A DNA stretch of 64,000 bases from a virus. The notes under the pieces were generated by a model, which saw only the letters and a program-made list of their open reading frames with translations, had not been told where the DNA came from and ran no database searches. Each line of letters opens with the position of its first letter. The stretch's first letter is position 1. Positions 4,556-26,646 of the stretch are shown here, piece by piece. Location of the stretch: positions 1-64,000 of IMG/VR virus record IMGVR_UViG_3300023444_000001; one strand, 5' to 3'. The translations under genes were made by a program, and so were the position numbers.

Positions 4556-6661
4556 TTACCCTCCTTTTCTAACCACAAAATTCAAAGTTCTCTTAACAAC
4601 ACGAAATAACAAATTTTCTTTCTCACTTACAAAATTCAAAATCCTTCTCTGAGAAGAAAAGAAATAAAGTATAACCTTTTCTATTCCCCTCAAACCCGCA
4701 GAAACAATATCCGAAATTCCGACTAAATCAACAATTTGTCGAAAAAATGTCCCTGTTTTAATCAAACTATCTTGAACATTTACCCCATCAAAAATCACTT
4801 GATGAATCATTCCTAATGAAGCATTAACCCAATCACTAATTCCAACTGTTTCAACCTCACTTCTTACAAAATTTACTCCCCTTGAAATTAAGTCACTCAC
4901 TCCAACAGAATCAATAATATTCCGAGAAAATGATTCTACTCTAACAAATATATCAGATATTCCAACTAAATCTACTAATTGCCTAAAAAAGGAGCCAACC
5001 TTATTTACAGAATCAGTAATATTCAAAGTATCAATAATACTTCGACTTAACATACCAATTTTAGAAACCATATCCGTAATTCCAACTACATCAAAAATAT
5101 TTCTTAAAAAAGCAACTTGTCTTGAAACTATATCTGATATAGAAACTGAATCCCCTAATTGCTTAAAGAATGTTCCAGTTCTTAAAACTATATCCGATAT
5201 TGAAACTGAATCTCCAATAAATCTAACAAATACCCCGAAAAAATTCAAATTATCGGAAATACTTTCTTGGTCATACAAATTTCTCAATTTATAAACCTGA
5301 TTGGAAACAGTATCTGTAATAGAAATAGAATCTATTTTACTTCTAAAAAAAATTCCTACTTTATAAACATTATCTGTAATTCCAACCGAATTTACAAGCG
5401 ACCTTATAAATGCTTCTACATTTGATACTATATCACTCACTCCAACAGAATCTATTAAGGTTCTAACTAATCCTCTACTTTGACTCATTAAATCAGTTAT
5501 ACCAATAGAATCAAAAATTTCTCGAACAAAAGAACTACTCTTTGAAACTACATCAGTTATTCCAACAGAATCAATAATATTCCGCAAAAAAGATTCTACC
5601 ACAAAAATAGAATCTGTAATATTTACACTTTCACTAAAATTCCGAAAAAATACTCCTATTTTAGAAACTACATCTGTAATACCTACATTATCTGCTAAAC
5701 TCCTTGCAAAGACACCTATATTTGTCATTATGTCCGATATAGATACTGTATCTGCTAAACTTACTGCTATGCCTTCTGATAAAGATACCATATCTGTAAC
5801 TCCAGCAGAATCAAAAATAGACTTAATAAAATTTCCTCCTTTACTCAATACATCACTTATTCCAAGTGAATCTACAGCAAGTTTCTTATATGTCGCCATT
5901 TTATTCATATTATCATTTATTCCAACAGATTCCGTAAGTAATTTACTATACGTTCCAATCCTATTCATACTATCAGATACTCCAACAGAATCACTTACTT
6001 TAGAAAAAGTTTTTCCACCAAACCAACTTGAATTTGATCCTTCAATAAGATCATAATTAAATCTTCCATACATAGTCGAAGTAAAACTTACAAACCCAAA
6101 TCCCATTTTACCAGCAGATACGCCATAAGTATTTTGTACAAAATTTGAAGCAATAACATTGCCATCTATTCTAAACTCTGCTCCTCCAGCAGAAGTATCA
6201 CCACCTTTATACCAACACTCCAATCTATACCAATGATCTGACTCTAAATCATAAGGATAAAAAGTATTGATAAATTGCGTTCCAAATCTATCCCAAGCCT
6301 GACATCTAACTCTATAACCTTGCCCTGAAACCCCAGTTCTTCCAAAACCTATAGTTGCAAAAACTACCGCTCCACTTGTCTCTATTTGTAACAAATTTCC
6401 AACATTTACTGCTGATTGCTGAAAGTATGTTGACGATGAATACTTAAAATAAAACCTATAATAAGAACTTACTTGACTTGCAAAACCAGCCCCTAAATAC
6501 CCAGAAACATTGTTCTCACTTCCTAATTTTTCTACTTGAAATCCATACGACCCATCTACAGCAATAGCAGGATATGTAAGCACTACTCCTGGATCATATA
6601 CTTCAGTACTAAAACTTCCTTTATTCTGACTTTCAAAACTTTCAGAGAAAAAAGTCGCCAT
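4556..6661 (-). CDS. Repeat-rich adhesin/fibre-like protein with LamG-like head
   Basis: 701 residues. Residues 1-215 look like a concanavalin/LamG-type jelly roll (SYGFQVEKLG, YYRFYFKYSS, HWYRLECWYKGG, AEFRIDGNVIAS), a fold used for glycan binding. Residues 223-663 are 22 consecutive units of 20 residues (one unit of 21) of the form xDSVGITDxVSxxxxFxRxx. The last 38 residues are basic and aromatic. No signal peptide is seen. The gene sits between the endolysin and small structural genes, so a tail fibre, head fibre or host-surface adhesin is the likely role. The repeat array would form an extended stalk placing the lectin-like domain away from the virion. This is inference from architecture. 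Confidence 0.8.
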   Translation of the reverse strand: MATFFSESFESQNKGSFSTEVYDPGVVLTYPAIAVDGSYGFQVEKLGSENNVSGYLGAGFASQVSSYYRFYFKYSSSTYFQQSAVNVGNLLQIETSGAVVFATIGFGRTGVSGQGYRVRCQAWDRFGTQFINTFYPYDLESDHWYRLECWYKGGDTSAGGAEFRIDGNVIASNFVQNTYGVSAGKMGFGFVSFTSTMYGRFNYDLIEGSNSSWFGGKTFSKVSDSVGVSDSMNRIGTYSKLLTESVGINDNMNKMATYKKLAVDSLGISDVLSKGGNFIKSIFDSAGVTDMVSLSEGIAVSLADTVSISDIMTNIGVFARSLADNVGITDVVSKIGVFFRNFSESVNITDSIFVVESFLRNIIDSVGITDVVSKSSSFVREIFDSIGITDLMSQSRGLVRTLIDSVGVSDIVSNVEAFIRSLVNSVGITDNVYKVGIFFRSKIDSISITDTVSNQVYKLRNLYDQESISDNLNFFGVFVRFIGDSVSISDIVLRTGTFFKQLGDSVSISDIVSRQVAFLRNIFDVVGITDMVSKIGMLSRSIIDTLNITDSVNKVGSFFRQLVDLVGISDIFVRVESFSRNIIDSVGVSDLISRGVNFVRSEVETVGISDWVNASLGMIHQVIFDGVNVQDSLIKTGTFFRQIVDLVGISDIVSAGLRGIEKVILYFFSSQRRILNFVSEKENLLFRVVKRTLNFVVRKGG
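4673..5995 (-). repeat. 22 tandem 60-bp coding repeats
   Basis: The 22 units run without interruption at a strict 60-base period; one unit is 63 bases. On the given strand they show as recurring CCAACAGAATC and ATATCNGNNAT blocks. Units differ at many codons, so this is an old, diverged array. The most constant residues are D-S-V-G-I-[ST]-D at positions 2-8 and an aromatic plus Arg near position 15-18. Confidence 0.9.
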
Positions 6662-8914: not shown

Positions 8915-9187
8915 TTACCTCATAGATAATGCTACCCACCAAAAAGATAAACCAGACGTTGGTGCCGTAGAACTACGAGATACTGTAACTGCTCCATCTG
9001 TAATTACTCCATCACTAAAAAAGTGCTCATCAGAAGCATAATCTACTTTTGGAAGAATAACCAAACAAACATTCTGATCTTCATCCAAGTTCGTAAATAC
9101 TTCCACAGTCAATCCCGTCCCAGTAAAACTTGCATCACCCCATGATAAAACCTTTCCAAAAGGTGGCAAAGCATTCTTTTTGCTCAT
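8915..9187 (-). CDS. Small structural protein, head decoration-like
   Basis: 90 residues, beta-rich with Gly, Thr and Ser (DASFTGTGLTVEVFTN, GVITDGAVTVSRSS, GLSFWWVALSMR). Its position just after the capsid gene and behind a hairpin terminator suits a minor capsid-surface or neck protein. No diagnostic motif is seen. Confidence 0.55.
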   Translation of the reverse strand: MSKKNALPPFGKVLSWGDASFTGTGLTVEVFTNLDEDQNVCLVILPKVDYASDEHFFSDGVITDGAVTVSRSSTAPTSGLSFWWVALSMR

Positions 9188-9203
9188 TTAGACCTCCTTA
9201 GAC

Positions 9204-9229
9204 AAAAGGGCAAGATATTCCTTGCCCTT
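9204..9229 (-). terminator. Intrinsic terminator or attenuator after the capsid block
   Basis: A perfect 9-bp inverted repeat (AAGGGCAAG / CTTGCCCTT) with a 6-base loop. Read on the minus strand it is followed by TTTTGTC. It lies between the Lys-rich gene downstream of the capsid and the next gene. The T-run is short, so partial read-through is likely, allowing high capsid but lower neck expression. Confidence 0.6.
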
Positions 9230-9261
9230 AAATCAAATTCAAATTTTCAGCCATTAACAAC

Positions 9262-9495
9262 CTACCGAACCAGAAGATTCATTCGTTCCAAAGCATCATA
9301 TACTCCAGAAGGAACCTTCTGACTTTTTCCAGCCAAAAACTTATAACTTTTTCCCCCAACTTTAATCGTTATATCTTTTGTAACAACAACTTTAGTATCA
9401 GTAGGCACTGCATCCCTTGTTACAACCTTCTTTACTACTTTAACAGGATTTTTTTTATCAACTTTTCGGGCAACCTGTTTATCCTTTTTAACCAT
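9262..9495 (-). CDS. Small Lys/Val-rich protein downstream of capsid
   Basis: 77 residues. The N-terminal half is strongly basic (KKDKQVARKVDKK, VKVVKKVVTR). The C-terminal half (DITIKVGGKSYKFLAGKSQKV, then PSGVYDALERMNLLVR) resembles small phage proteins located just after capsid genes in which a short beta unit ends with a 'VP..VYDAL...G.L' helix. A head-associated role is inferred. Confidence 0.6.
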   Translation of the reverse strand: MVKKDKQVARKVDKKNPVKVVKKVVTRDAVPTDTKVVVTKDITIKVGGKSYKFLAGKSQKVPSGVYDALERMNLLVR

Positions 9496-9507
9496 TTAAT
9501 TTTCCTC

Positions 9508-10392
9508 TTAAGCAGACTCCATCAATACAGCATTATTTGCCTCAATCAACCCTGTACCCCAAATAGCGTACCAAGCCAAAGCGTGCTCCCTACCAAAATC
9601 AGTAACACCATTATCCCTCAACTCTACTGGAAGTCCTTGAGCCCATGCCAAACAATAATCACCAAACATAACTGCTTCATAAACAAGAACCGTACTCTGA
9701 ACCGTAGTCATCATAGTTGTTGAAACAAACCGAACATCCTCATATCTTCCAACTTCGCCAGTAAACAACTGACCTGGAGCACCATAAGAAGAAGCAGAAA
9801 TCCAATCAGGATCATCTCTCAAACTCCTCAACTGATGAGGATGAGCAAAACAAATATAAAAATCCCCATTAAACTTTGGGGCATCTGCTGATTCCAAATC
9901 TTCAACTGCATCTTTAATCAAATCTGTATCAAAAGTATTTGCCGCAGTCAAACTCGCCATATCCGCTACATTGTCAGCATACCGAGTATTTCCTGCTCCA
10001 TTTATTACAGCAGTCTGAAGTTGAGTATCAAGAACTTTAGCCATATTTCTACCAAGCAATTTTGCCGCTTCGGACAAAACATCATGAGTAGCCGTCTGAA
10101 GCAAATACTCTGAAACAGCCGTAGCCTTACCTTGCTCTGCCACAGTTATACTAACCGTAGTTGCAGCCAGAGCATCATAAGTCATCTGAACACCTTCAGT
10201 AAGAGCACCACCTCCTGCAAGATCAGAATACTTCGTAAACTGAATAGTCTGCCCAGGAGTTTTTCCAAGTTCAGTTTTCTCTTGAGCAAACTGGGCAAAC
10301 TTCAATACCGGCATTGCAGCGTAAAAAATCTCCTTACTATATACCGTCTGCAATACTTCCGGCAAATTAGTTGTCGTAGTAAGCGTAGACAT
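9508..10392 (-). CDS. Major capsid protein, N4-gp56 family
   Basis: 294 residues. The translation carries the hallmarks of the N4-gp56 group of HK97-fold capsid proteins: an N-terminal LTTTTNLPEVLQTVYSKEI segment, PGQTIQFTKYSDL, TVAEQGKATAVSEYLLQT, and especially HPHQLRSLRDDPDWISAS and FTGEVGRYEDVRFVSTT. It self-assembles into the icosahedral shell round the scaffold encoded immediately upstream. The gene is less AT-biased than neighbours and uses a clean AGGAG-type ribosome binding site, consistent with high expression. Confidence is high. Confidence 0.95.
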   Translation of the reverse strand: MSTLTTTTNLPEVLQTVYSKEIFYAAMPVLKFAQFAQEKTELGKTPGQTIQFTKYSDLAGGGALTEGVQMTYDALAATTVSITVAEQGKATAVSEYLLQTATHDVLSEAAKLLGRNMAKVLDTQLQTAVINGAGNTRYADNVADMASLTAANTFDTDLIKDAVEDLESADAPKFNGDFYICFAHPHQLRSLRDDPDWISASSYGAPGQLFTGEVGRYEDVRFVSTTMMTTVQSTVLVYEAVMFGDYCLAWAQGLPVELRDNGVTDFGREHALAWYAIWGTGLIEANNAVLMESA

Positions 10393-10418
10393 TTATTCTC
10401 CTCCATTCAAAGGAGACC

Positions 10419-11207
10419 CTACTTTAGACCAAAACTCCTTTTAGGAGGTTTAGCCCCAATAACCTTCCAAATCTCGCTACGACTTTTTTCATACTCTTCT
10501 GGAGACATATTCTTTATTGCTTCCGCAGTAAATTCCGGAATTTCTACTCTTTCCGTTCGACTAATTACTCCAAAAGTCTTCTCTGGACCTGGACTTACAC
10601 TCTCTATATTTGAGTTTGTAGAGCCTCTCTTTTCCTCTAAAAGTACCTCTTTTCTAATACTTTCGTAAGCCATTTTAGCCTTATCAATACTCTCATCAAT
10701 TTCTTCTTTACTATTTCCCCCCACCAATTCTGGGACAAGTTTTCCTTCTGCTTTATTAAGTTTTTCCAATCTATATGCCTTTAATTCTGATTCATGTACT
10801 GCTTGATTAAGAGCCTCAATATTAGCAGTCAATTCTTCTATCTTCTTCATTGTAGCCTTATCTTTCTTTTGCTTCAACCGTTCTAATTTTTCCTTTTCAG
10901 AAAGTTTTTCACTTTCCAATTGCTCTACTGTTTCTGACAACTCTGATAATTTATCATTTAACTCCTTAATTTTCTTATCCCTTTCTTTTATTTTTTCTCG
11001 TTCTCTCTCTAAAGATTTATACATTTTAGCCTTTTCAGTTGCTCTTACTTCCTCCCTAATATTTCTTATTTCCTCCAGTATTTCTGGAGATTTCAACAAA
11101 TCCTTATTTTTTACTTGCAATTCTTCATCATTTGCTTCCTCTTTATTTTCAATAGAAGGTTCTACTTCAGTTGAACTTACTTCTTTAATATCATCTTCTT
11201 TTTCCAT
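10419..11207 (-). CDS. Capsid scaffolding protein (coiled coil)
   Basis: 262 residues. Residues about 40-170 form a long Lys/Glu-rich coiled coil (MYKSLEREREKIKERDKKIK, LSETVEQLESEKL), flanked by an acidic N-terminus and a C-terminal helix with SPEEYEKSRSEIWKVIG and a basic end (PPKRSFGLK). This is the usual layout of phage scaffolding proteins. It lies immediately upstream of the major capsid gene. No protease signature is present. Confidence 0.75.
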   Translation of the reverse strand: MEKEDDIKEVSSTEVEPSIENKEEANDEELQVKNKDLLKSPEILEEIRNIREEVRATEKAKMYKSLEREREKIKERDKKIKELNDKLSELSETVEQLESEKLSEKEKLERLKQKKDKATMKKIEELTANIEALNQAVHESELKAYRLEKLNKAEGKLVPELVGGNSKEEIDESIDKAKMAYESIRKEVLLEEKRGSTNSNIESVSPGPEKTFGVISRTERVEIPEFTAEAIKNMSPEEYEKSRSEIWKVIGAKPPKRSFGLK

Positions 11208-11221
11208 TTTCTCTCCCTATC

Positions 11222-11401
11222 TCACCTTACAGTTTTTGTATCATAAGCCGGATTAGGACCGGGTCTTCCTGATGCAACCTTACCAGACTTCCTCATAGCC
11301 TTACTATAAGCAAAAGTCATAACTGAACCACGCATCGCTCCACCAAGATTAGGCCAAGGGCCTTTTCGAGATGGACCTTGAGTCTGATTCCTTGTAGCCA
11401 T
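11222..11401 (-). CDS. 59-residue basic protein at the head of the capsid operon
   Basis: I read this small gene directly: ATG at 11401, TGA at 11222, giving MATRNQTQGPSRKGPWPNLG and then a Gly/Ser/Lys/Pro-rich rest ending PNPAYDTKTVR. A near-perfect AGGAGGT ribosome binding site precedes it, and a consensus-like promoter lies 35-65 bases upstream. It is the first gene after that promoter and just before the scaffold. Function is unknown; a small head protein is plausible. Confidence 0.65.
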   Translation of the reverse strand: MATRNQTQGPSRKGPWPNLGGAMRGSVMTFAYSKAMRKSGKVASGRPGPNPAYDTKTVR

Positions 11402-11435
11402 TCTTTAACACCTCCTTTCAAACCAATTTATTCTA

Positions 11436-11465
11436 AATATAACTACACATCAAAACATTTGTCAA
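11436..11465 (-). promoter_or_regulatory. Sigma70-like promoter for the capsid operon
   Basis: On the minus strand TTGACA (11465-11460) is separated by 18 bases from TATATT (11441-11436). It sits in the only sizeable gap (11402-11471) between the 1478-residue secreted protein gene and the scaffold/capsid genes, which suits strong independent capsid expression. Confidence 0.7.
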
Positions 11466-11471
11466 GTATTT

Positions 11472-14400
11472 CTACCAAACTATTCTATCTTCAACCTTTG
11501 GTTTTCCTGGAGCACCATGTGTTTCAATCCCAGTTATATAACTTGTACGAGTTGTATCCGAATAATTTCCAAACGTATTATAAGCAAAAACTGTAAAAGA
11601 ATAAATAGTCTTAATATCTAATCCAGTAACTACAATCTGAGTATCTGCTTTTGCAACAGATGATTCTGGAGGAGCAATTCCAGTAGTATCCATTATACCC
11701 CAAACAGGAATTGTTCCTTGTTTATATCTTACAACATACCCAGCAATATCTGCTGAATCTCCTTGACTAAAAATCAAATTGACTGAACTTGATCCTACTT
11801 CTAAAGTATCTACATTTGTAACTGGATCAGGATAAACCCTATTCAATGTTTGCTCTGTAGCATAAGCCCCACCATTAGACCCGGTTGTATCAGCATACTG
11901 CATCAATGAATCAAAAGGAAAAACTGATACAGAATAATACTGTCCAGCCAATAATCCATTTATCGTCATTGTAGTATCTACCCGAGACAATGAAGAATCT
12001 ACTATTACCGTTCCTGAATCTTTTGAAGGTGGATACTGTTCAAACCCCACTTTATATCTTCCAGCATATCCCTTCAAATCAGAATCTTGATTTCTCTTAA
12101 ATATCACATCAAGACTCGTCTCTGTTGCATTTATTAACTGAACTCCTTGAGCCGGATTTGGAGGCCAATTTCCATGCGTATTAACTGTTACTGATGATCT
12201 CCCCAATGAATCAGCAACAGAATAATTCTGATTTTCATCAAAAGCAAATACTGATACTGAATATGTACTTGCAGAATCCAACCCAGTAATCACTAAACTT
12301 GTATCACTTCTGCTCAATGATGAATCTTGAGCAACAACTCCTTGACTCCTTGAAGTAGGTGCCGTAGAACCCTGCAAATATGTTGCAACATATCCTGCAA
12401 TATCAAGTGAGTCCCCTTTATTCCAAACCAAATCTATACTTGTAAATCCAACAGATGTTGTATCAACACCTAAAACATTATCTGGAGCCAAACTATCCCC
12501 TTTAGAAAAATAAACTACTAATTCAGGTCTTTTTGCCTGATCTAAATACTCGCTCGATGCAAAAGCATGACTATCTGGAGATTTATGCACATCCCACAAT
12601 TGTACATTCAAAAAATCTATTGGAACCGTCTGGCCTTTAATAACCTTTCTCATCAATGCTGTAACATCAAACTTATACTCCCCATAAGAACTCAAATAAA
12701 TTGAATCTATTGCTGACCCTCTACCACCCCCAGAATCCCATTTAATAGTATTCCCCATAGGAGATGCCCATGTAGCCAAACTATCCACCCACGAGTCTAT
12801 ACAAGCGTATAACACTATTGTATCCTGCCCTCCAGATACAAAATTATACTTCACAAAACTTGAATCTATTATATCATAAGGATGCACCAAACCAGAAAGA
12901 TCAAATTGACTGTAACCATATCTCCAAAAAGTTGAATCTGGTCCAGGATCATTTTTTACCAATATTGTCGCATTTCTTCCATAATTAGTATTCCTATCAC
13001 TTCCATCCTTTGTAAAAGTATCAAATGTTCTCCCCTTATAATCTGAACTACCTCTTTCTCCAACCGTAAAAGAAGAGTAAGACAATTCAAGAGTTGTAGA
13101 ATCTGCCCATGATCCAGAGCCTAAATTTGAATAATTATTGCTTTCATCAAAAGCAAAAACAGAAACCGAATAATTTTCCGAAGAATTTAATCCATTTATT
13201 CTAAATGTTGTATCTAATCTTGAACTTGTAGTTCCCCAAAGTTGTCCAGACTGATAATTTACTGGAGCATTATTTAACCCAACATTTGCTTTAATCATAT
13301 ACCCCGCAATATCAAGAGAATCCCCTTTATTCCAATGAAGCCTCATCCATGTTGTACCAACAGAATCTATTGAAACCCCTCCTACCATATCAGGAGGTAA
13401 AACATCTCCTACTGGAGCCAAACCATACAAAAAATAACTATCTCTAAAAGGTATTTTCAAACTATCATTAACAATAGAATAATCATTATGTGCTGAATCA
13501 CTCCAAACATAAGCAATATGATCTGTAATTCTTGCCGCTTGAATTTTTCTATAGGTAGAATCTGGCCCTGGAACATCAACTTTAACCGTATCCTGCTCAC
13601 GTAGATTAACTCCAACCCATCCATGCTCAAATACTCTTTGATAACCAATAAATCCCAGGGAATCTCCTGCTGTCTTTGATGGAATCAACTCTACATTATC
13701 TATCCAAATTGATCGAGATTCATTATTTCTTAAAATTGGAGTTATTCCAAATTCAACCTGTACATTTGTCAATAAACCTGAAGTCCTATTTGTATCTATT
13801 TCAACTGGAATATAAACTGTTCTCCACATTTTAGGAATATGAACACAATCTACTCTATATAAAGTTCTATTTGAATGTATTCTAACTCCAATCAATTTGG
13901 AATCAATAGATCGAGCATCAAACTTCAAAGTATACTCCGCTTGATTATTCAAAGAAAAAGTATTTGATCCAACTGCAAAATCATAAAAATCATTCTCTGG
14001 AACATTTATATTTCCATCTCTCCTATTAACATTTATCTGAATTTTCATAGCCCCAGAACCTGATTTAACCACATCTGTAACCCTTGAAATAGAAATTGAA
14101 TCAGAAGGCACTCCAGAACCTGATACAGACCATCCACTTAAATTTACATCAAATGTTCCATTCGTAATCTTATTCTCTTTTGAAAAATTTAACAATAAAG
14201 GTCGCCATTTATCTACAGGTTGTCCTAACCACCATCTATTAGGCCCAACACTATCTGGATTTGTAGAAATACCATTTGAATCAACAAAATACTCATCTCC
14301 CCAAACTGCATGAGGTTTTGCGTATTTCATTTTAGTCATTCCATTCCCACCAAATATTGTCATCAACCCAAGATTGAATCTTTCACTTCTAATTGCATCC

Positions 14401-15908
14401 TTTTCATTTGATGCAGATACTAATTGTGGTAAGTAATTATTGCTATATGAGGCATATCTATATCTTTTTGCTTGAGTCAATTCAAGCAAATTATCTAAAT
14501 CATCTCTATAATTACCTGCCCACCTACCATTAGTTAAATCCCAGGGGCTACCACCCCAACCAATCTCAGCCAAATTCATAATTTGAACTAAACTATCTTC
14601 TATTCCCATAAAAGACATACCTCTTGCATTTACAGACAAATAAATTAAACTATCATTTTGACTTTGAAACATACTTGCCGCCCTAATCAATGCAGAATCA
14701 CTTGATTCTCCCTTTTTCCCCACATGATTATAAAAATACGTATCATAATTAACTCCAGCACAAAGCAAAGTATTTCTCGAAGATAAAACTTTTTCAATAG
14801 TATTTATCTCAAGAGATGCCTTCAATTCATAAGGCCATACACCATGAATTGCTCCATCTCCTTCAAGTCCTTTTAACAAAATACCTTCCCAAGAAGAATA
14901 AACTCTTCCTCCTTGTTCTGCAGAACTCTGCAAATAATATACTGTGCTTCCATTAGGCCATGATGTAGCCGGATAAGAACCATTTTGCCAAGACCTTATA
15001 ACATACAATGAATCATTTCCAGTTCCCGAATTATCCCAAACTTTATCAACTCTACACCATTCATTTTTTTTAATTTGAATAAACGGACGATGAGAACCAT
15101 AAGTAATTCCATCTCCTCCATCAGGTGGAGGAAACATACTTGCATCATTTACCTTCAAAAATCTTCCACTACCTGATGCTCTCATTAAAACTGTACTATC
15201 ATTATATAAATATTCAATTGTATCCGGAACTGAAAATAACAAAGACTGAATAGAATCCGCCACAACAGTACCTATTGTATCTTGATATACTGGAGCAGTT
15301 AATCTAAGATTCATTAGTTGTATATCTGAATGTAATACTTCAATAAAATCTGGATTATAAATACTCAAAGAATCTAATCTATCACGTTTCTCTTGAACAT
15401 TTGACGTACCAGAACCGCCCAATTCTGTATCCCCATCCCATCCTATATCCAACCTTGCAACACGTTTAATTGTGTCCCCCATAAAATAACTCATGTTCAA
15501 TCCATTAAAAGTATATCCAACTTTTGGATATTCATAATCAAATCCCTGAATATACAAAGAATCTGTTCCAACTCTTGACCAAATACCAGAAGACTTCTTA
15601 AAAAGACTAAACCAAATAAAATCTTCTTCCGGCATTACTTTAGCCACAATAACAGTATCACTACTTGTAAATACTCTTGGAGGCAAAATTTTTACCCCAA
15701 TCGTGTCAAAATCAGGGTAACTCAACATATCATATGTAACTTTCAAACTATCCCCAGAACCCAACCCAATCCATCTAATGCCTATTGTATCTGGAACAGT
15801 CAATTTTTGTTGACTTTTGAGCCATACATCAAACGTTTGAGAAAAAATACTGGTTGAACTACAAACCAAAAATCCCATTACCAAATATACAATGTATAGT
15901 CTTTTCAT
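11472..15908 (-). CDS. Secreted multidomain protein: glycosidase-like barrel, CBM, DNRLRE and four FN3 domains
   Basis: 1478 residues with a Sec signal peptide (basic MKRLY, hydrophobic core, likely cleavage after SIFSQ, about residue 24). Residues about 330-575 resemble putative glycoside hydrolase-like barrels of the GHL15 kind (DGAIHGVWPYELKAS, WGDEYFVDSNGI, NRWWLGQPVDKWRPLL). Residues about 580-740 look like a CBM4/9-type galactose-binding domain (ITNGTFDVNLSGWSVSGSG). Residues about 845-940 are FN3. About 945-1140 is a DNRLRE-type domain (TNYGRNATILVKND, YGYSQFDLSGL). Three further FN3 repeats follow to the end, each with the TGLDS..YSVSVFAFDE pattern. It probably binds and processes polysaccharide outside the cell. 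No dockerin is seen in it, but the next gene upstream encodes one. Its stop is followed by the capsid promoter. Catalytic identity is uncertain. Confidence 0.8.
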   Translation of the reverse strand: MKRLYIVYLVMGFLVCSSTSIFSQTFDVWLKSQQKLTVPDTIGIRWIGLGSGDSLKVTYDMLSYPDFDTIGVKILPPRVFTSSDTVIVAKVMPEEDFIWFSLFKKSSGIWSRVGTDSLYIQGFDYEYPKVGYTFNGLNMSYFMGDTIKRVARLDIGWDGDTELGGSGTSNVQEKRDRLDSLSIYNPDFIEVLHSDIQLMNLRLTAPVYQDTIGTVVADSIQSLLFSVPDTIEYLYNDSTVLMRASGSGRFLKVNDASMFPPPDGGDGITYGSHRPFIQIKKNEWCRVDKVWDNSGTGNDSLYVIRSWQNGSYPATSWPNGSTVYYLQSSAEQGGRVYSSWEGILLKGLEGDGAIHGVWPYELKASLEINTIEKVLSSRNTLLCAGVNYDTYFYNHVGKKGESSDSALIRAASMFQSQNDSLIYLSVNARGMSFMGIEDSLVQIMNLAEIGWGGSPWDLTNGRWAGNYRDDLDNLLELTQAKRYRYASYSNNYLPQLVSASNEKDAIRSERFNLGLMTIFGGNGMTKMKYAKPHAVWGDEYFVDSNGISTNPDSVGPNRWWLGQPVDKWRPLLLNFSKENKITNGTFDVNLSGWSVSGSGVPSDSISISRVTDVVKSGSGAMKIQINVNRRDGNINVPENDFYDFAVGSNTFSLNNQAEYTLKFDARSIDSKLIGVRIHSNRTLYRVDCVHIPKMWRTVYIPVEIDTNRTSGLLTNVQVEFGITPILRNNESRSIWIDNVELIPSKTAGDSLGFIGYQRVFEHGWVGVNLREQDTVKVDVPGPDSTYRKIQAARITDHIAYVWSDSAHNDYSIVNDSLKIPFRDSYFLYGLAPVGDVLPPDMVGGVSIDSVGTTWMRLHWNKGDSLDIAGYMIKANVGLNNAPVNYQSGQLWGTTSSRLDTTFRINGLNSSENYSVSVFAFDESNNYSNLGSGSWADSTTLELSYSSFTVGERGSSDYKGRTFDTFTKDGSDRNTNYGRNATILVKNDPGPDSTFWRYGYSQFDLSGLVHPYDIIDSSFVKYNFVSGGQDTIVLYACIDSWVDSLATWASPMGNTIKWDSGGGRGSAIDSIYLSSYGEYKFDVTALMRKVIKGQTVPIDFLNVQLWDVHKSPDSHAFASSEYLDQAKRPELVVYFSKGDSLAPDNVLGVDTTSVGFTSIDLVWNKGDSLDIAGYVATYLQGSTAPTSRSQGVVAQDSSLSRSDTSLVITGLDSASTYSVSVFAFDENQNYSVADSLGRSSVTVNTHGNWPPNPAQGVQLINATETSLDVIFKRNQDSDLKGYAGRYKVGFEQYPPSKDSGTVIVDSSLSRVDTTMTINGLLAGQYYSVSVFPFDSLMQYADTTGSNGGAYATEQTLNRVYPDPVTNVDTLEVGSSSVNLIFSQGDSADIAGYVVRYKQGTIPVWGIMDTTGIAPPESSVAKADTQIVVTGLDIKTIYSFTVFAYNTFGNYSDTTRTSYITGIETHGAPGKPKVEDRIVW

Positions 15909-17134
15909 TGACTCTTGCCTTTCATCCTTAACATTGTATTCTTAATATCCTCAAAATTCTTTGCCTTCGTTGATATACTCAATTCATCTACAACTCCATC
16001 CCAAGGATAATTTATTACTCCAGATGTATTCTTAATTGCTCCAATCCAAACTTTCATTGAATCAGCAATATTCCATCCTGTAATTCCAGAAGGAATGGCC
16101 GGACTTAAAACATTAGAACTATCTTTTATCACACCATTTATGTACAATTTTATTTCAGACAAAGAATCTGAATATACAGAAGCAATATAATACCATTTAT
16201 TTACCTGCAATTTATTTTTTGCTGATAAAATTGTATTTGTTCCCGCAGTATCAATATATCCTACCTTAAACAATGAATCTGACCCATCAACATAAAATCC
16301 CCAAAATCCCTTCATTCCATAAGTAGAACAAACCATCATTGTATCGGAAGATACTGCTGTTTCCGGTTTAATCAGCATTTCAACAGTCTTTGCTACCAAA
16401 GAACTATCAGCATTTTTTTCTGCTAATTGAGTTGAACCGTCAAAATCTAAACCTCCAACCCTCCCATTCAAAGCAGTCTTATAATAAGGAGAAACCTTTG
16501 TAATTATACTATCACCAAAAGAAGTCTCTGAATATAATGTCTGATTAAATTTCCAAAGAAAAACTGTATTTGAATCAGGATCAAGAGTTCTATTTGTATA
16601 ACCCATTCTATTAAAAATCTCATACAAATCAGACCAATCTACCTTCCTATCTCCCGTAATATCATAAATTGAATACCCTGAATTATTCCAATGTTCTGCA
16701 ATCAAATTCAAATCAACACCATTTACAATACCATCTTCATTTACATCCCCTCTCAATCCAACAAACCTTGTACTGTCCACAGATAAACAAGATTCAACCA
16801 AAGGATTATTTTTCAAATATCGTCCAATCCGAATATAATACCTAAAAGATGAATCCCATAGTGCAAACGAAAGATGAACGATCCCATTTGAATCTGGACT
16901 TACATACCCAAGGTCTATAGTATCTGGATATAAGCCAATTACACTCCCCAAATAAACTTTATAAGACATTGAATCCGAAACAACTTGACTTGAATCTATT
17001 GTACAATTTCCTGAATCAGCATAAACTGTATTTCCATCCAAAATGCTAACTGAAACAACTTTATTCTCATGGGTTATACCTTTGGAATAAAGTAAAAAGA
17101 AAAGCAAAATCAAACAAGAAATAACCTTTTTCAT
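15905..17134 (-). CDS. Secreted dockerin-containing protein with LamG-like domain
   Basis: 409 residues. Residues 1-20 form a Sec-type signal or anchor (MKKVISCLILLFFLLYSKG). Residues about 127-178 are a dockerin: the first half GDVNEDGIVNGVDLNLIAEH has the full calcium loop D-x-N-x-D-G-x-V-N-x-x-D, and the second half DITGDRKVDWSDLYEIFNRM repeats it with a T in place of N. Residues about 185-395 form a concanavalin/LamG-like sandwich (VGGLDFDGSTQLA, KTVEMLIKPE, NKWYYIASVYSD, KLYINGVIKDSS, VWIGAIKN). Dockerins bind cohesins, which in bacteria assemble polysaccharide-degrading complexes. The adjacent gene (17135-17575) encodes a cohesin-like protein. The gene overlaps the next by 4 bases. Confidence 0.85.
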   Translation of the reverse strand: MKKVISCLILLFFLLYSKGITHENKVVSVSILDGNTVYADSGNCTIDSSQVVSDSMSYKVYLGSVIGLYPDTIDLGYVSPDSNGIVHLSFALWDSSFRYYIRIGRYLKNNPLVESCLSVDSTRFVGLRGDVNEDGIVNGVDLNLIAEHWNNSGYSIYDITGDRKVDWSDLYEIFNRMGYTNRTLDPDSNTVFLWKFNQTLYSETSFGDSIITKVSPYYKTALNGRVGGLDFDGSTQLAEKNADSSLVAKTVEMLIKPETAVSSDTMMVCSTYGMKGFWGFYVDGSDSLFKVGYIDTAGTNTILSAKNKLQVNKWYYIASVYSDSLSEIKLYINGVIKDSSNVLSPAIPSGITGWNIADSMKVWIGAIKNTSGVINYPWDGVVDELSISTKAKNFEDIKNTMLRMKGKSQ

Positions 17135-17575
17135 CTATACAACCTTAACTCTATATTGAGAAAATGAACCTTTTTCATTGATAGGGCTTAATCCATCTCC
17201 TTGTATAATTCTAAAAATTCCATCTGTAATCCAAATCCATGCTACTCCTGTAACAAGAGCATTAAAATAAAGACTAAACAAACTGCCCGAACCATTTATG
17301 CCTTTTCTTGATCCTAATCGTGAATACCCAAAAGCAATTTTTCCTATATCTCCTTCAATATACCCCATATCTAAAGCAGTTTCAATATTACCAAAATTAT
17401 CCAAAAATCCACCTTTTTCAACTACAGGAGATAAATCAGGATAACTTGTAGAACTTTTAACTTGAACTTTAGATGTATCACTTATGCGAATAGTACCTGC
17501 TACACCATGAAGTTCCCTTACTCCATGAACAATAAAATTTATCTTAAAATCATTTCCAACCAATACTTTACTCAT
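17135..17575 (-). CDS. Cohesin-like domain protein
   Basis: 146 residues, essentially one cohesin-like nine-strand sandwich. It begins with a 'G..F.i.f.v.gv..L.G' pattern (VLVGNDFKINFIVHGVRELH), has the expected 'v...GGFLDNF' turn, and ends with 'GsGsLf.l.F.a...G..wi.i.dg.f' (NGSGSLFSLYFNALVTGV) plus a final loop GDGLSPI. These positions match cohesin and related carbohydrate-complex domains. No signal peptide is visible, unlike the dockerin protein encoded 1 base downstream, so this copy may be a virion or intracellular component. Binding to the neighbouring dockerin is inferred from family knowledge and adjacency. Confidence 0.7.
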   Translation of the reverse strand: MSKVLVGNDFKINFIVHGVRELHGVAGTIRISDTSKVQVKSSTSYPDLSPVVEKGGFLDNFGNIETALDMGYIEGDIGKIAFGYSRLGSRKGINGSGSLFSLYFNALVTGVAWIWITDGIFRIIQGDGLSPINEKGSFSQYRVKVV

Positions 17576-17922
17576 TACAAATTCTCTAAAATCTCTGTTC
17601 CTCCAAGAGACCGCAACTTTTGAGCCTTAACCATTTCTAATTCTAAAAGTAATTTATTCTCTTCAAAAAGCAAACTTTCAAATTCATTTCCCGCAGAATA
17701 TACATCTACAAGACTATCTCTATTATTTATATTTACTCGATCTAATGCTTTCCCATATTGTTTTTCCGCATTTTTTCTCTTCTTTTCCACTTCTTCCAGT
17801 ATAAATTTAATCCTATGTTCTTCCACAATAGCATCTCTTGCTAAATCAGCCCTTTGAAACAAAAGTGCAGTATATTTTTTCCACATCTCATCAATAGTTA
17901 TCTTCGGAGACAAATTACTCAA
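17575..17922 (-). CDS. Coiled-coil hypothetical protein between MuF and cohesin genes
   Basis: 115 residues, almost entirely helical and charged (IKFILEEVEKKRKNAEKQYG, LLFEENKLLLELEMVKAQKL). No motif is recognised. It is one base apart from or overlapping the cohesin-like gene, so the two are probably made together. A minor head or scaffold-accessory role is possible. Confidence 0.6.
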   Translation of the reverse strand: MSNLSPKITIDEMWKKYTALLFQRADLARDAIVEEHRIKFILEEVEKKRKNAEKQYGKALDRVNINNRDSLVDVYSAGNEFESLLFEENKLLLELEMVKAQKLRSLGGTEILENL

Positions 17923-17943
17923 TATATCCTCCCTGGCACATAT

Positions 17944-20900
17944 TCAGTCTTTGGAGTTGATATAATTCTTCCCTTCAACTCTATCACCAAAAACTTTTTT
18001 TAATTCTTTTTCCAATTTTGAATTTCGAACTCGAATAATTTTCACATCCTCAAAGTTTATTCCTCCCTCATGCACAAATTGAACTTCTTTCCGAAATACA
18101 TTTGAAGCAATTTTCTTCCCTTTAACCTCCAAATTCCCAGTTACCCCTTTATATAAATTTTCTACCCCAGAAAAAGTTTGCCCCTTAATTTTAAACAAAG
18201 TTTCCTTCTGAAAAAAGATATCTTTATCCAATACAAATTTGAACTCTCTATTTTTTCCGACAAATTTCGAGAAATCTAATTCTCCTCCTATCTTTCCCTC
18301 TTCTTCTAATGTAGTTGGAATCCTCTTAAACCATAAAGCCTTCATTCCATCTTCACTTTTCAAATTCAAAATAATAGGCTTCAATTCTCTATCTATTGTC
18401 TCCACCATCTTTTCTCTTGGAACTGACTCAATATAAAACTTTTTCAAATTATCTAACATCTCCGACATGAATGTATCACCAATATCTTCCTGCTTTATAG
18501 GAATTAACTCCGAAAATCTCTTTGTAGCAAAAATCCTATTACGAGCCATAATATCTATTGGAGAATCAGAAGTCAAAATATAACTATAGACATCCCTATC
18601 CTGACCCAAACGAAAATTTCTCCCATTTCTCTGAATAAATGTCTTAAAATTCTTCGGCAAATCAAGATGAATTGTAACTTTAGCCATTTGAACATTTATT
18701 CCTTCAGACTTTGCTGAAGTTAGAATCAAAAATTTCTGCTCTGGAATTTCTGAAAACTTCTTGAGAATCTTTTGCACATCCATATTCTTTGTAGAACCTG
18801 TTAAAGCAACAGCCCTATCCTTCCCAAGAAAATTCCTCAAATTCTTTGCTACTTCATTTGATTCTGTATGAATTATAATCTTATCATCGGGATGTTTCTT
18901 AGCAATTTTCAAAATTTCCTTATAAAAAGCATTATCTTTCCCTGAACCAGAACGCAAAACCTTCATTAAATCGTGCCGCCTATGTGTTTCTAATTGAACT
19001 AATTCTTTTGTTGCTCCCTTTCTAATCAACTCCTGCTTCTTAATTTCATACATTTTTTCCAAATTTCTATATTCCATTTTTTGAACTTTAGTCAACTTTA
19101 CCTTTATTAACTGTTTATTTCTCATTTCAACAGGTAAAGCCTCATTAAAATAATCAATCAATCTGATCCCTCTTATTGGAGCCTTTGCAACAAATATTGA
19201 ATCATCGAACAAACTATTAAATGTCTTAACCATCAAAGGCCGAGCAAAGTTATTCTCTGTTGTCAACCCACCAAAAACTCTTCCTCCAAATTTTGCCCCA
19301 GAAAACATATCGACAAATTCTCTCTTTGTCATTCCTGTTTTTCCGGGCTGTAACCATTCAATAGTATCCCACATCTGCCCAATATTATCCTTTATAGCCG
19401 TACCAGTAAGACCAACCTTATATTTAATCCTTTTTGAAACCAAATCTCTTAAAATCCTTGATTCTTTAGAATATGCTTCATAATCAAACACATCCCCAAC
19501 AGGAGTTAAATCATGAATTTCATCTATAACAACCATATCATACTTCATCCGTAATTCTTTAACCAATGAAGCCGCATCCTTATGTGTTATCACATCTATT
19601 TTATACTTACCAGGATTTTTCAACATTTTCAACTCTATGTCTCTTTTCCCTGAAATCAATCTTCCCTTATATTTACTAAACTTTTTAATCTCACTAACCC
19701 AATTCATTTTTGTTCCTGATGGAACTACAACTAAAGCCCTTTTTACTTTTCCTGCTGAAATTAAATCTGAAATAGCAGAAATAGATGTCGGAGTTTTTCC
19801 AAATCCCACTCCAGCATTGAGTAAAACATTTTTCTGCTGAACAATAAATTCCTCTGCCGCCCTTTGAACTGGTTTCAAAGTTATACCTTCTTTAATACCC
19901 AAAATCTTTCTATCAAATACCCCTCCCTTCAAAACAATATTATTTTTTATATCTTCAAACTCATTTTGCCAATTTTTAATTCTCTTCCATCGAATAGCAT
20001 GAATATCAAGCCATTCTTCAAAATAAAATTTCCTTCTTTCCGGAAATCCTCTAACCCATTTAGGAATAACATAATAGGCTTTCCCAGTTTTAACATTCTT
20101 CCTGATATAAACATTCAAATACCTCATAGCCTTATTAAATTCCTTTGGAGTTCCTTGACTCCACTTCAATAACAATTCGGGAGAAGGCAAATTTTTTGCC
20201 ATATCTGCACTTATACCCCAATCTATCAAAGTTTTACTTCTTGAACGATAAGGCCAAATCCTATTAGTATAATTTATAAACTCTGATCCACCCAAACTAT
20301 ATGGATCACTCTTAACAAGAGCATCTCTAACAATAGCATTTACTATCTCATCAGGAGGAATAAATTTTACAGGAATAAATCTTTCATCATCAATATCTAA
20401 AACATCAATTCCAATTTTTTTTAATTCATCTCTTGAACCCACATAAGCAATTTCCTTAACCCCATCTCTTGCTTCCGTTATAGCCTCTGGAGTAAAAGAT
20501 TTCAATGAACCTTTAACTCTAAAAAAGACTTTATGATATTTTTCTGGATTTATCTTAAACTGGTAAAATTTACCTATTTTTCCAAGTATTCCATCTTTTT
20601 TAACCTGCAAACCTAAAGTTTCTAATCTTCGCAATGCAGTTTCTCTTGTTTTTCCAAGTACAACAAAAACATCCTTTGGAGACATTAAAGCCAACCGAAT
20701 CTGATCTACAGCATTCATACTACCCAGTATTCCACCTAATTCACTTTGTGCTTGTGAAAATAAACTATCAGCAATTACTCTTGAAGCATTTTTTCCTTTG
20801 AATCCAGCCTTTCTCATAGTCCGCAAAGTTGAATATCCATCATTAAGTAATCCATCAACACTCTTCAATCCACGCTTTGTATAAATTCCAATTCTTTGAT

Positions 20901-22269
20901 GAGTAACCAACTTATCTAAAACCTCTAATAATTTTTTTCTGTCCACAGTTTTTGTACTTTGTTTTATTGCTTCAACAAGAACTTGACTTGCATTTTCAAC
21001 TCCAAGCAAATTAAACTTTTCCCAAGTAAATGCTGGTTGCCCCAAAAGTTGAAAAGCAATTCCATTCATAGCATCAAAAGCACCTCTTTTGACCGGAAGA
21101 GAAAAAGCCGCATTTACAAAATTCTCTACCTCATAATAATTACTATTTATAGCCTCCTTCAATTCACTCTCTGATTTCTTAAGAAGAACTTTTGCAAATG
21201 TTTTCATCCTACCCTTTCCCCCAACAGACTCCATTTTTGCAACTTCTCTAACCAAAGACCGAAATGTAGGCCCACTCATTTTATCTAATAAAGCAAGAGT
21301 CTCACCTGAAGCAAACCTTTTTGCTCGTTCAATAACAATAGAAGGTAATCCTTTATGAACTAAATCTCTTGGAGAAAATTCTTGAGGAGATAATCCAGCC
21401 CTTTCAAAGGCTTCTCTTCTACGAGCCATAAGAGCCGTATAGACTGGACTTAATCCACATTGACAATATGGATGGGGAAATGTTGGGGCCTCATCAGTAT
21501 AATATACCCCTCGAAGAGAAAGATTTCCAACAGAAAGACCCTCTCCTTCAAGAGGTGTTGCATTAGCCAATTTTTCACAAATCTCTACTCCATGTTGATC
21601 CAAATGATTTGAAGACAAATCCCACTTAACAAGAGGAACTCCCCTTTCTTTTGAAAAAAGAACAGTAGCCTCCTGATAAGCCCTTCCTGCTTCTGATCTA
21701 ACTAATCTTTGTCCCCATTTTAATTCTGAAGCCCCATAAGGAGACCTTCCCGGAATATTATAAGTCAATCTTCCTTTTAACTGTTGTCTAACAAAACTAA
21801 TGCTTTTCCCCTTTTTAAGAACTGAATACCCAAAAGTTCTTATACGTTTATCCAAATAATTTAATCTATCTTCAATAGTTAATCCATTAAAGGGCTTAAA
21901 ATATTGCATAAAAGCCCTTTTCTTAAAATCCTTAATTTCCTCCATCGAAATTGAAGATAATCCCATTTTTCTAAAAATTCTTTGCTGATGATAAAATGCT
22001 CTGTTAATAGATTCTGAAACTGCTTTATTTGTTTTAACCTGAAGCCCAAACATCAATTCTTTTGTATTTTGTCGAAGTATTTCTCTTGAAAACTTTTCAT
22101 CCTCTCGAAGTAAAAATCTCTCACCCTTAAATGAAGATGTAACTGTATTTGCAAGATCAGTATATGCTCCATACAAATTATCTCCAATACGTTTACTTTT
22201 TCTTACATTTATATCTAACGCATGAACAAAACGCTTTCTCTGTATTTTCGTAGATAAATACTTAGGCAC
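17944..22269 (-). CDS. MuF-like minor head protein fused to SNF2-family helicase
   Basis: 1441 residues. Residues about 120-285 are a MuF/SPP1-gp7-type minor head domain: WGQRLVRSEAGRAYQEA, then WDLSSNHLDQHGVEICEK and FPHPYCQCGLSPVY, the conserved R.E...A / H.D.C / P.PHP.C.C signature. Residues about 790-1230 form an SF2/SNF2-like ATPase. Walker A is NAGVGFGKTPTS (about 817), box II is VVIDEIHDL (about 915), then LTGTAI. Motif V is TSAKSEGINVQMA and motif VI is QRNGRNFRLGQ (about 1212). The rest has no domain I recognise. MuF proteins occupy the portal region and can be ejected with DNA, so the helicase is probably delivered into the host at infection, where it could remodel or protect incoming DNA. 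It overlaps the portal stop by 8 bases. Confidence 0.9.
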   Translation of the reverse strand: MPKYLSTKIQRKRFVHALDINVRKSKRIGDNLYGAYTDLANTVTSSFKGERFLLREDEKFSREILRQNTKELMFGLQVKTNKAVSESINRAFYHQQRIFRKMGLSSISMEEIKDFKKRAFMQYFKPFNGLTIEDRLNYLDKRIRTFGYSVLKKGKSISFVRQQLKGRLTYNIPGRSPYGASELKWGQRLVRSEAGRAYQEATVLFSKERGVPLVKWDLSSNHLDQHGVEICEKLANATPLEGEGLSVGNLSLRGVYYTDEAPTFPHPYCQCGLSPVYTALMARRREAFERAGLSPQEFSPRDLVHKGLPSIVIERAKRFASGETLALLDKMSGPTFRSLVREVAKMESVGGKGRMKTFAKVLLKKSESELKEAINSNYYEVENFVNAAFSLPVKRGAFDAMNGIAFQLLGQPAFTWEKFNLLGVENASQVLVEAIKQSTKTVDRKKLLEVLDKLVTHQRIGIYTKRGLKSVDGLLNDGYSTLRTMRKAGFKGKNASRVIADSLFSQAQSELGGILGSMNAVDQIRLALMSPKDVFVVLGKTRETALRRLETLGLQVKKDGILGKIGKFYQFKINPEKYHKVFFRVKGSLKSFTPEAITEARDGVKEIAYVGSRDELKKIGIDVLDIDDERFIPVKFIPPDEIVNAIVRDALVKSDPYSLGGSEFINYTNRIWPYRSRSKTLIDWGISADMAKNLPSPELLLKWSQGTPKEFNKAMRYLNVYIRKNVKTGKAYYVIPKWVRGFPERRKFYFEEWLDIHAIRWKRIKNWQNEFEDIKNNIVLKGGVFDRKILGIKEGITLKPVQRAAEEFIVQQKNVLLNAGVGFGKTPTSISAISDLISAGKVKRALVVVPSGTKMNWVSEIKKFSKYKGRLISGKRDIELKMLKNPGKYKIDVITHKDAASLVKELRMKYDMVVIDEIHDLTPVGDVFDYEAYSKESRILRDLVSKRIKYKVGLTGTAIKDNIGQMWDTIEWLQPGKTGMTKREFVDMFSGAKFGGRVFGGLTTENNFARPLMVKTFNSLFDDSIFVAKAPIRGIRLIDYFNEALPVEMRNKQLIKVKLTKVQKMEYRNLEKMYEIKKQELIRKGATKELVQLETHRRHDLMKVLRSGSGKDNAFYKEILKIAKKHPDDKIIIHTESNEVAKNLRNFLGKDRAVALTGSTKNMDVQKILKKFSEIPEQKFLILTSAKSEGINVQMAKVTIHLDLPKNFKTFIQRNGRNFRLGQDRDVYSYILTSDSPIDIMARNRIFATKRFSELIPIKQEDIGDTFMSEMLDNLKKFYIESVPREKMVETIDRELKPIILNLKSEDGMKALWFKRIPTTLEEEGKIGGELDFSKFVGKNREFKFVLDKDIFFQKETLFKIKGQTFSGVENLYKGVTGNLEVKGKKIASNVFRKEVQFVHEGGINFEDVKIIRVRNSKLEKELKKVFGDRVEGKNYINSKD

Positions 22270-23680
22270 CTACTTTCCCCTTAAACATATCAGCAAAAGT
22301 ACCTCCTCGACCACTTATACTTGCTTCTTGTTCTAATTGAGTTTTATGCTCTTTATCAATTCGAGCCAATAATTCAGATATATTTTTAATTCCAAGACGA
22401 CTTAAAGCCCCTTCACGATCTATCAACCCCAAAGATAATTCCATTTCTAACTCTTGCAACAAAGTAATTCTATCCTTGGGCAATGGGTCCTTAAATACTA
22501 CCGAAGTATCATATGCTTCAAAATCATCTCCATCCTTCAATTTTGGAATTTTTTTCTTTGTCTCCAAAATCTTCAAGATAAGTCGATTTGTTCTTTCTAA
22601 TCCACGTCCATACGTAAGCCTTTTTAACTTCATTCTTTCTACAAGCGGCATATATTGAACATGAAGTGCCGCCGCAGATGTATTTGAAATAGGCTGCATT
22701 TGTCCTAAAGTGGCTTCAGGAACATTAGACATCTCATGTAAACTCTTTTTTAACAATTCCAAATACTTTATCGAAGAAGATAAATTACCTGCCAGATTCA
22801 AAAACTTAACATCTCCATCCGTTGGTATATTTGACCAAACCCGCCCCGCAGACCTAATAACATTCTTAAATGAAACTCCTTTTATAACTGTAATAGGGGC
22901 ACCATAATAGGCTATTGTATCTGAAACATCCGAAATTTTCTCATTATATTCCAAATTCAAATCTATTAAATTTATCATATCACTTAAACCCCAAAATACT
23001 CCACTTATAGGCAAATTTGAAATATGCACCAAAGGAATCTCCATAATAGGATTTTCCAATGATTCCTTTAATTCATCATCAAGGTATAATTCAATTTTAT
23101 CTTCATAAAAAATCTCTTTATATTTTCTTCTAACTCTTTCTCCAGTTTCAGTATTAAACTCATATATCGGAAATTCAATTTTTACCCATATAAGTCTTTC
23201 TCTATCACCTGGACTCCATACCACATCAACTAATCTGCCATCAACGACATTTAATGTAATCTTCTGCGAAACTTCATCAAACCAAATTTTTAGCCATGAA
23301 TCCCCCGTAACTCCTCCCTCTTGAACTAATTCATACAAACGTAATCCACGAAAACTATCAGAACCCCAAGCCTTTATTAAGGCTTTTTCTCCCAAAGACT
23401 CATTAACCTTCGGCAAATTAAATTCCAACCCATTTCCAATTAAAGCAAAAGAAACCTTATCTACAAATGCTCTAACAAAATTCACAGTTAATTGAGATTC
23501 TCCCTCTTTTCCCTCAAATATCCAATGCTTTCCAAGATACCACTTCCAATATTGATTATATTTTCTCCTCCTTTGTTCAAAAGCAACATCTTGATCTTCA
23601 GAAACATAATACAGAGGACCTTTAACTGCATTTTGTCCCGACTTAGATTTGCTAAAATCTATTCTCTCATTAGTAGCCAA
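22262..23680 (-). CDS. Portal protein, SPP1 gp6-like
   Basis: 472 residues. Family features include the N-terminal YNQYWKWYLGKHW helix, VNFVRAFVDKVSFALIGNG, EGGVTGDSWLKIWFD, the central NLPISGVFWGLSDMINLIDL followed by LEYNEKISD, and SNVPEATLGQMQPISNTSAA in the stem/crown helices. The dodecameric portal forms the DNA channel at one capsid vertex and binds the terminase. The gene lies directly after the large terminase (11-base overlap) and before the MuF gene, the canonical order. Confidence is high. Confidence 0.93.
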   Translation of the reverse strand: MATNERIDFSKSKSGQNAVKGPLYYVSEDQDVAFEQRRRKYNQYWKWYLGKHWIFEGKEGESQLTVNFVRAFVDKVSFALIGNGLEFNLPKVNESLGEKALIKAWGSDSFRGLRLYELVQEGGVTGDSWLKIWFDEVSQKITLNVVDGRLVDVVWSPGDRERLIWVKIEFPIYEFNTETGERVRRKYKEIFYEDKIELYLDDELKESLENPIMEIPLVHISNLPISGVFWGLSDMINLIDLNLEYNEKISDVSDTIAYYGAPITVIKGVSFKNVIRSAGRVWSNIPTDGDVKFLNLAGNLSSSIKYLELLKKSLHEMSNVPEATLGQMQPISNTSAAALHVQYMPLVERMKLKRLTYGRGLERTNRLILKILETKKKIPKLKDGDDFEAYDTSVVFKDPLPKDRITLLQELEMELSLGLIDREGALSRLGIKNISELLARIDKEHKTQLEQEASISGRGGTFADMFKGKVGA

Positions 23681-26302: not shown

Positions 26303-26448
26303 ATTTTCCTTACAATATCCATAATTCGACTGCTTTTATCAATTTTCTGATTCTTCTTATCAAAATAAGTCTTTTTATTGCTATAAAACCTGCTTGTTCT
26401 TCCATATTCAAAATCCAAATATCTGCTCCCACCCTTTCTCTTTGACAT
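26293..26448 (-). CDS. 51-residue basic protein
   Basis: Read directly: ATG 26448 to TAA 26293, starting MSKRKGGSRYLDFEYGRTSR and ending RIMDIVRKIWV. An AGAGGT ribosome binding site lies 8 bases upstream. Its start touches the stop of the 46-residue gene, and its stop overlaps the glycosyltransferase start by 10 bases, so all three are coupled. It is strongly basic and might bind nucleic acid. Confidence 0.6.
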   Translation of the reverse strand: MSKRKGGSRYLDFEYGRTSRFYSNKKTYFDKKNQKIDKSSRIMDIVRKIWV

Positions 26449-26589
26449 TCATTTTACCTCTTTCTTCTTTTTCTTATTAGGCAAACGCTTCAAATACTTC
26501 TTTCCATACTTACGAACCCATCTTCGAGCAATTCCTGGGTGAAAAGCAAATAAAAATCTCATCTGTGCTTTTGACTTAAAAGGCATCAT
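26449..26589 (-). CDS. 46-residue conserved phage protein (MPFKSKAQMRFLFA type)
   Basis: Read directly: ATG at 26589 (or 26586) to TGA 26449. It begins MMPFKSKAQMRFLFAFHPGI and ends in a Lys run. Tiny proteins of the form 'PFKS.AQ.RF.FA.HP.IA..W' are widespread in phages and prophages; no function is known to me. It is the last gene before the terminator at 26602-26646 and appears to have a start just past that hairpin. Confidence 0.7.
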   Translation of the reverse strand: MMPFKSKAQMRFLFAFHPGIARRWVRKYGKKYLKRLPNKKKKKEVK

Positions 26590-26601
26590 TCATTCCTTTC
26601 T

Positions 26602-26646
26602 ACAAAAAATCCCCCATAAATCTCCCTTTCAGGCTATTCATGGGGG
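26602..26646 (-). terminator. Strong intrinsic terminator upstream of packaging genes
   Basis: On the minus strand a stem CCCCCATGAAT / ATTTATGGGGG encloses a loop and is followed by ATTTTTTG. It lies between the 82-residue gene at 26678 and the 46-residue gene. It should separate early/middle transcription from the virion genes, implying a promoter or antitermination for the downstream block. Confidence 0.8.

Follow-up and report, generated by a model that had tools for sequence, protein, structure and literature searches.

The window analysed here, positions 1–64,000 of IMG/VR virus record IMGVR_UViG_3300023444_000001 (a metagenomic contig of 81,937 b), carries on its minus strand a phage head operon whose genes are, in order of decreasing coordinate, terminase, portal, MuF-helicase fusion, coiled-coil-like gene, 146-amino-acid (aa) gene, dockerin-LamG gene, giant gene, 59-aa gene, scaffold and major capsid protein. 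Three of these, encoding proteins of 146, 409 and 1478 aa, form a 6.1 kb cassette of intact, coupled frames whose starts and stops overlap or abut, with the giant gene as the last. The giant protein had been described in a first-pass annotation as a secreted glycan-processing protein displayed, perhaps, through a cohesin/dockerin pair.

The three genes and their modules

The giant gene is a single uninterrupted frame, and its predicted product carries the modules proposed earlier: four FN3 stretches and a CBM96/DNRLRE module, all placed by Pfam in the C-terminal half, behind an N-terminus that, by eye, looks like a Sec signal peptide. The features of the cassette are as follows.

17135–17575, minus: 146-aa protein without a signal peptide, labelled a cohesin in the first-pass annotation (not confirmed)
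15905–17134, minus: 409-aa dockerin-LamG protein with a signal peptide, overlapping the start of the giant gene by 4 b
17075–17134, minus: putative signal peptide of the dockerin-LamG protein, about residues 1–20 (by eye and by hydrophobicity filter)
16607–16750, minus: type I dockerin, residues 129–176 of the 409-aa protein (Pfam E 6.7e-7)
15944–16399, minus: LamG domain (Laminin_G_3), residues 246–397 of the 409-aa protein (Pfam E 7.6e-14)
11472–15908, minus: giant protein, 1478 aa (open reading frame (ORF) and translation)
15837–15908, minus: putative signal peptide of the giant, about residues 1–24 (by eye; hydrophobic stretch flagged by the filter)
14139–15536, minus: proposed glycosidase region of the giant, residues 125–590 (no family match)
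13143–13382, minus: FN3 domain 1, residues 843–922 (Pfam E 1.1e-5)
12516–13022, minus: CBM96/DNRLRE module, residues 963–1131 (Pfam E 7e-10)
12231–12470, minus: FN3 domain 2, residues 1147–1226 (Pfam E 8.8e-5; alone below the curated cut-off)
11919–12155, minus: FN3 domain 3, residues 1252–1330 (Pfam E 5.2e-5; alone below the curated cut-off)
11559–11828, minus: FN3 domain 4, residues 1361–1450 (best Pfam fn3 stretch; whole protein E 6.5e-22)

The CBM96/DNRLRE match (PF24517) lies above its curated cut-off (39.4 bits against 26), and carbohydrate binding by this module is predicted from the profile. The giant itself has no dockerin. The dockerin of the 409-aa protein also exceeds its Pfam cut-off (PF00404; 29.8 bits against 22.9) and matches solved dockerins (E 0.006–0.18). 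Calcium loops of dockerins are of the D-x-N/D-x-D-G type, with two per domain; judged by eye, loop 1, DVNEDGIVNGVD, fits this motif and loop 2, DITGDRKVDWSD, deviates from it at positions 3 and 6.

Signal peptides, called unusual for virion-module genes in the first-pass annotation, are indeed uncommon in this phage. A hydrophobicity filter run on the 112 minus-strand ORFs with a length of 60 aa or more picked out 11, and by eye only three of the 11 are cleavable-looking and on real genes (those at 11472, 15905 and 44543). The N-termini of the giant and the 409-aa protein, again by eye, begin with basic residues, continue into a hydrophobic core and have small residues before the presumed cut, and both proteins are candidates for Sec export. 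The third gene (44543–45541, minus), distant from the cassette, encodes a 332-aa protein with no Pfam match. Signal peptides of Bacteroidetes are described as following a Q-rule, by which Q comes first after the cut (PMC5837995). The presumed cuts of two of the three signal peptides would likewise leave Q first. Shine-Dalgarno cores are found in 25 of 45 genes (500 shuffles: mean 13.2, maximum 24), and such a frequency is unlike Bacteroidota, so that the two hints to the host disagree. None of the three cassette genes has such a core and both flanking genes have one; this absence can be due to chance, because only 25 of the 45 genes are positive overall.

The locus and its relatives

The flanks of the cassette consist of conserved phage genes, listed here with the promoter-like site discussed below.

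23670–25334, minus: terminase
22262–23680, minus: portal
17944–22269, minus: MuF-helicase fusion, 1441 aa, SNF2-like helicase (Pfam and PHROG)
17575–17922, minus: 115-aa coiled-coil-like gene, bordering the insertion upstream (faint similarity to its positional match in related locus L026, E 0.012)
11436–11465, minus: promoter-like site TTGACA-18-TATATT, preceding the genes for small protein, scaffold and capsid
11222–11401, minus: 59-aa conserved small basic protein, downstream edge of the insertion (relatives in L026, L027, L105, L119, L120, L122 and others)
10419–11207, minus: scaffold gene (PHROG head scaffolding E 0.0099, and homologues in relatives)
9508–10392, minus: major capsid protein (PHROG E 1.2e-56)

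The location inside the head genes given by the first-pass annotation thus holds for MuF upstream and for scaffold and capsid downstream, but not for the neighbouring gene called a cohesin (see below). The 59-aa gene is smaller than the ORF size cut and is missing from that annotation; its product has no PHROG match.

Related loci were those kept by two scans: one with the capsid protein (27 loci by single query; 399 by alignment, from which the 80 best were retained) and one with an alignment of the MuF-helicase (26 loci). Fusions of MuF with an SNF2-like helicase similar to the one at 17944–22269 are found in L026, L052, L100, L101 and L103. In all 24 loci in which both MuF and scaffold were labelled (22 contigs, several of them near-identical), the gap between these two genes measures 244–665 b and holds from none to two ORFs of 50 aa or longer, whereas here it spans 6.7 kb, which argues that the cassette is inserted cargo, outside the ancestral head module. 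Similarly, portal and capsid are 0.8–8.0 kb apart in the 66 loci with both genes and 11.9 kb apart here. A small basic protein matching the 59-aa gene was recognized by eye in 15 of the 24 gaps, and tblastn backs the homology for L026 and L027 as well as for L105, L109, L112, L114, L119, L120 and L122 (E 2e-5 to 0.024). The gene order of L026 is MuF-helicase, 118-aa gene, small protein, scaffold and capsid, with no cassette; it presents an empty site between the same flanks, the upstream one being matched mainly by place and length, and the three extra genes sit precisely between the coiled-coil-like gene and the small gene.

The cassette genes themselves gave a single FN3-like match (E 0.047) by tblastn in 90 related loci and nothing in 24 further loci, and a dockerin was found in none of 50 related records (50 of the 90 loci, L060 being left out). 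For the giant, no relatives were found among viral contigs, with the whole protein or with residues ~490–590 and 881–1240, nor among genome contigs, nor by tblastn among phages and plasmids. Matches of residues ~490–590 to L124 and L125, by eye a replication protein, and a single match in the 50 related records (35 residues, 9.8 bits) were taken as chance. No viral relatives were found for the 146-aa protein; a gene of a Croceibacter phage matches it at E 0.3. The only relatives found for the 409-aa protein are in L033 and L034, where a tail-region protein of another phage (L033:2552–5941) ends in a dockerin; it has no signal peptide, its gene setting is unrelated and the gene next to it has no cohesin likeness.

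Some members of the survey carry other genes in this part of the genome. In L063, L067 and L068 the stretch from portal to capsid contains genes that are toxin- or peptidase-like by eye, and in L037/L038 it encodes a 237-aa protein whose start is hydrophobic. In L023 (5205–6643), genes that by eye are FolE-like and thymidylate-synthase-like lie between terminase and portal.

The GC content and GC skew of the cassette are like those of its flanks, and the synonymous codon distances of its genes (0.074, 0.085 and 0.155) fall within the range of 14 reference genes (0.056–0.183), so that, together with the coupling of its frames, the cassette appears at home in this genome. Cassette genes without viral relatives in a metagenomic IMG/VR contig could also point to an assembly chimera, which we nevertheless regard as very improbable given the stop/start overlap at the upstream junction, the matching GC skew and codon use, and the intact head genes on both sides. 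The same lack of viral relatives, with the absence of the cassette from all related loci searched, would fit host-derived passenger DNA without a role for the phage; this seems doubtful to us, as the three frames are intact and coupled over 6.1 kb with phage-like codon use, and a useless segment this long would be expected to disappear from a phage genome.

Around the start of the cassette, no promoter- or terminator-like site stands above shuffled sequence; the promoter-like site comes after it. The strong promoter placed directly after the giant gene in the first-pass annotation survives in part: TTGACA-18-TATATT is present with an 11/12 match, the best of 68 sites in 17.5 kb, but shuffles give the same number of sites (67.6). 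The 59-aa gene has a strong ribosome site; in the 100 b ahead of this gene, an 11/12 match arises in 5 of 2000 mononucleotide shuffles. As the promoter-like site precedes the small protein, it most likely drives that gene together with scaffold and capsid, its use depending on the host. Among 15 relatives, four have a promoter-like site with 8–9 matches ahead of the small gene and none of these is rare in shuffles; the start position taken for L026 in this test was off. No mobile-element repeats were seen at the cassette ends among the 20 largest of 53 direct-repeat families, and Rfam gave no match over 9000–27500.

The central region of the giant and the cohesin label

The earlier description of the giant as glycosidase-like found no echo in the profile searches. 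Residues 110–800 have no Pfam match at E≤10, pieces of them do not rise above chance, and NCBIfam and PHROGs are silent; for residues 125–590, relaxed limits in Pfam, NCBIfam and PHROG and a search of the Protein Data Bank (PDB) likewise returned nothing. The suggested likeness to GHL15 fares no better by profile, the PF14885 model being silent over the whole record at E≤10. By eye, the central region resembles GHL15-type proteins, which is a lead rather than a finding; like GHL15 and other GHL proteins, the giant is large, apparently exported and modular, but it differs from them in having no profile match. A barrel has been described for GHL10 (PMC5765458). An AlphaFold2 model of residues 112–600, made from the single sequence without relatives, reached a mean predicted local distance difference test (pLDDT) score of 30 and a predicted template modelling (pTM) score of 0.22. 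We think it unlikely, though possible, that the giant acts after export as a glycoside hydrolase, with a barrel in residues 125–590 that would cut polysaccharide of the host capsule or matrix and so aid release and spread of progeny: the size of the region, the neighbouring CBM96 and FN3 modules and the resemblance seen by eye speak for such an enzyme, and the lack of any Pfam, NCBIfam, PHROG or PDB match and the silent GHL15 profile speak against it, the model being uninformative either way. Elsewhere in the window, a 338-aa protein (47161–48177, minus) without a signal peptide has the look of a glycosidase barrel by eye and no Pfam or NCBIfam match.

One half of the proposed cohesin/dockerin pair is well founded, namely the dockerin (Pfam E 6.7e-7), which is encoded next to the 146-aa gene. 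The cohesin half is not: PF00963 is silent on the 146-aa protein at E≤10, and hhalign against six cohesins gives a probability of 0.3%, compared with 0.1–0.2% for four controls. By local alignment, one of the six (5nrm) beats 299 of 300 shuffles and the other five are unremarkable. The protein opens, without a signal peptide, straight into a beta-looking domain, and its second half is cohesin-like by eye. Its AlphaFold2 model, made without relatives, is weak and all strands (pLDDT 44, pTM 0.37), and a Foldseek search with it gave antibody-like noise, with no cohesin among the 50 of 975 matches listed. A true dockerin adjoining a small unexported gene within a head operon, together with the 5nrm alignment, the cohesin-like second half and the all-strand model, could be read as a system for virion display, in which the 146-aa protein, as a cohesin-like plug on the head, would capture the exported dockerin-LamG protein after lysis and give the virion a glycan-binding coat. 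We consider this improbable, because the cohesin profile is silent, hhalign and the five other cohesins offer next to nothing over controls and shuffles, Foldseek on the poor model brought up no cohesin, the giant has no dockerin and no observation links the 146-aa protein with the head. A wider version is less probable still: a diverged-cohesin 146-aa protein on the head would be joined on lysis by both the Sec-exported dockerin-lectin and the giant, and the virion would gain host-exported appendages that assembly within the cell could not have provided.

Proposed role and known systems

We favour, at about an even chance, a reading in which the cassette is inserted cargo for exported glycan-binding proteins that are expressed late and are not assembled into the head. 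A three-gene cargo cassette would have entered the head operon between the coiled-coil-like gene and the conserved small gene, and would be transcribed on the head-operon message via its overlapping or abutting genes, hence probably late in infection. The host Sec machinery may then export the giant and the dockerin-LamG protein, and once outside the cytoplasm their CBM96, LamG and FN3 modules could bind envelope glycans or glycans in the surroundings. Both products would be accessory proteins rather than head components, and the benefit might lie in easier release or spread of progeny, or in an altered surface of the infected cell.

Several points weigh against this proposal. The upstream coiled-coil-like match to L026 is weak (pairwise E 0.012), and the signal-peptide calls on the giant and the dockerin-LamG protein were made by eye. 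No sorting signal beyond Sec was seen on these two proteins, and if the host has two membranes, Sec by itself would take them no further than the periplasm; a search of genome contigs with the phage FolE, made to place the host, returned nothing. Contacts with proteins are another function of FN3 and LamG domains, which bears on the proposed glycan ligands, and dockerins normally are one half of a protein pair.

The arrangement has partial counterparts in known systems. Like phage morons among late genes, the cassette adds genes to a conserved head region at a single, defined site and is absent from relatives, but it is a coupled set with export signals and has no promoter or terminator of its own that stands out. 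MuF-linked cargo and polymorphic toxins of phages have reportedly been described (PMC5576092); the operon position and the MuF-helicase fusion upstream are shared, whereas the genes here are separate, their products are predicted to be exported and to bind carbohydrate, and no toxin domain was found. With cellulosome-type secreted dockerin proteins of bacteria, the 409-aa protein shares a type I dockerin above the Pfam cut-off, LamG and a signal peptide; it differs in its location in a phage head operon and in having no confirmed cohesin partner in the record. The tail protein of L033/L034 is likewise a phage-encoded dockerin protein, but, as noted above, it belongs to the tail region, has no signal peptide and lies in an unrelated gene setting.

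Two further regions of the window lie apart from this locus. Genes of 7-deazaguanine metabolism occupy 34746–43772 on the minus strand (QueC, 39111–39812; FolE, 41900–42475; QueE-like, 42707–43420; QueD, 43401–43772), with a 476-aa gene (34746–36176, minus) that is DpdA/TGT-type by eye and without a family match; that the phage DNA is modified is a guess. A fibre-like protein (4556–6661, minus) has many short DSVGITD-like repeats and a Pfam Ribosomal_S5_C match that is probably spurious.

In the portions of the literature on dockerins in phages, capsids, tails or viral contigs covered here, no viral cohesin-dockerin pair was found. To our knowledge, head-operon cargo of phages is mostly taken for toxins or for proteins that are packaged inside the capsid. 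A head operon with an intact, coupled set of genes for export-tagged, putatively carbohydrate-binding proteins suggests that some phages make their host export large surface proteins late in infection, and, if the dockerin has a viral partner, the pair would be a natural example of a virus that docks by cohesin and dockerin.

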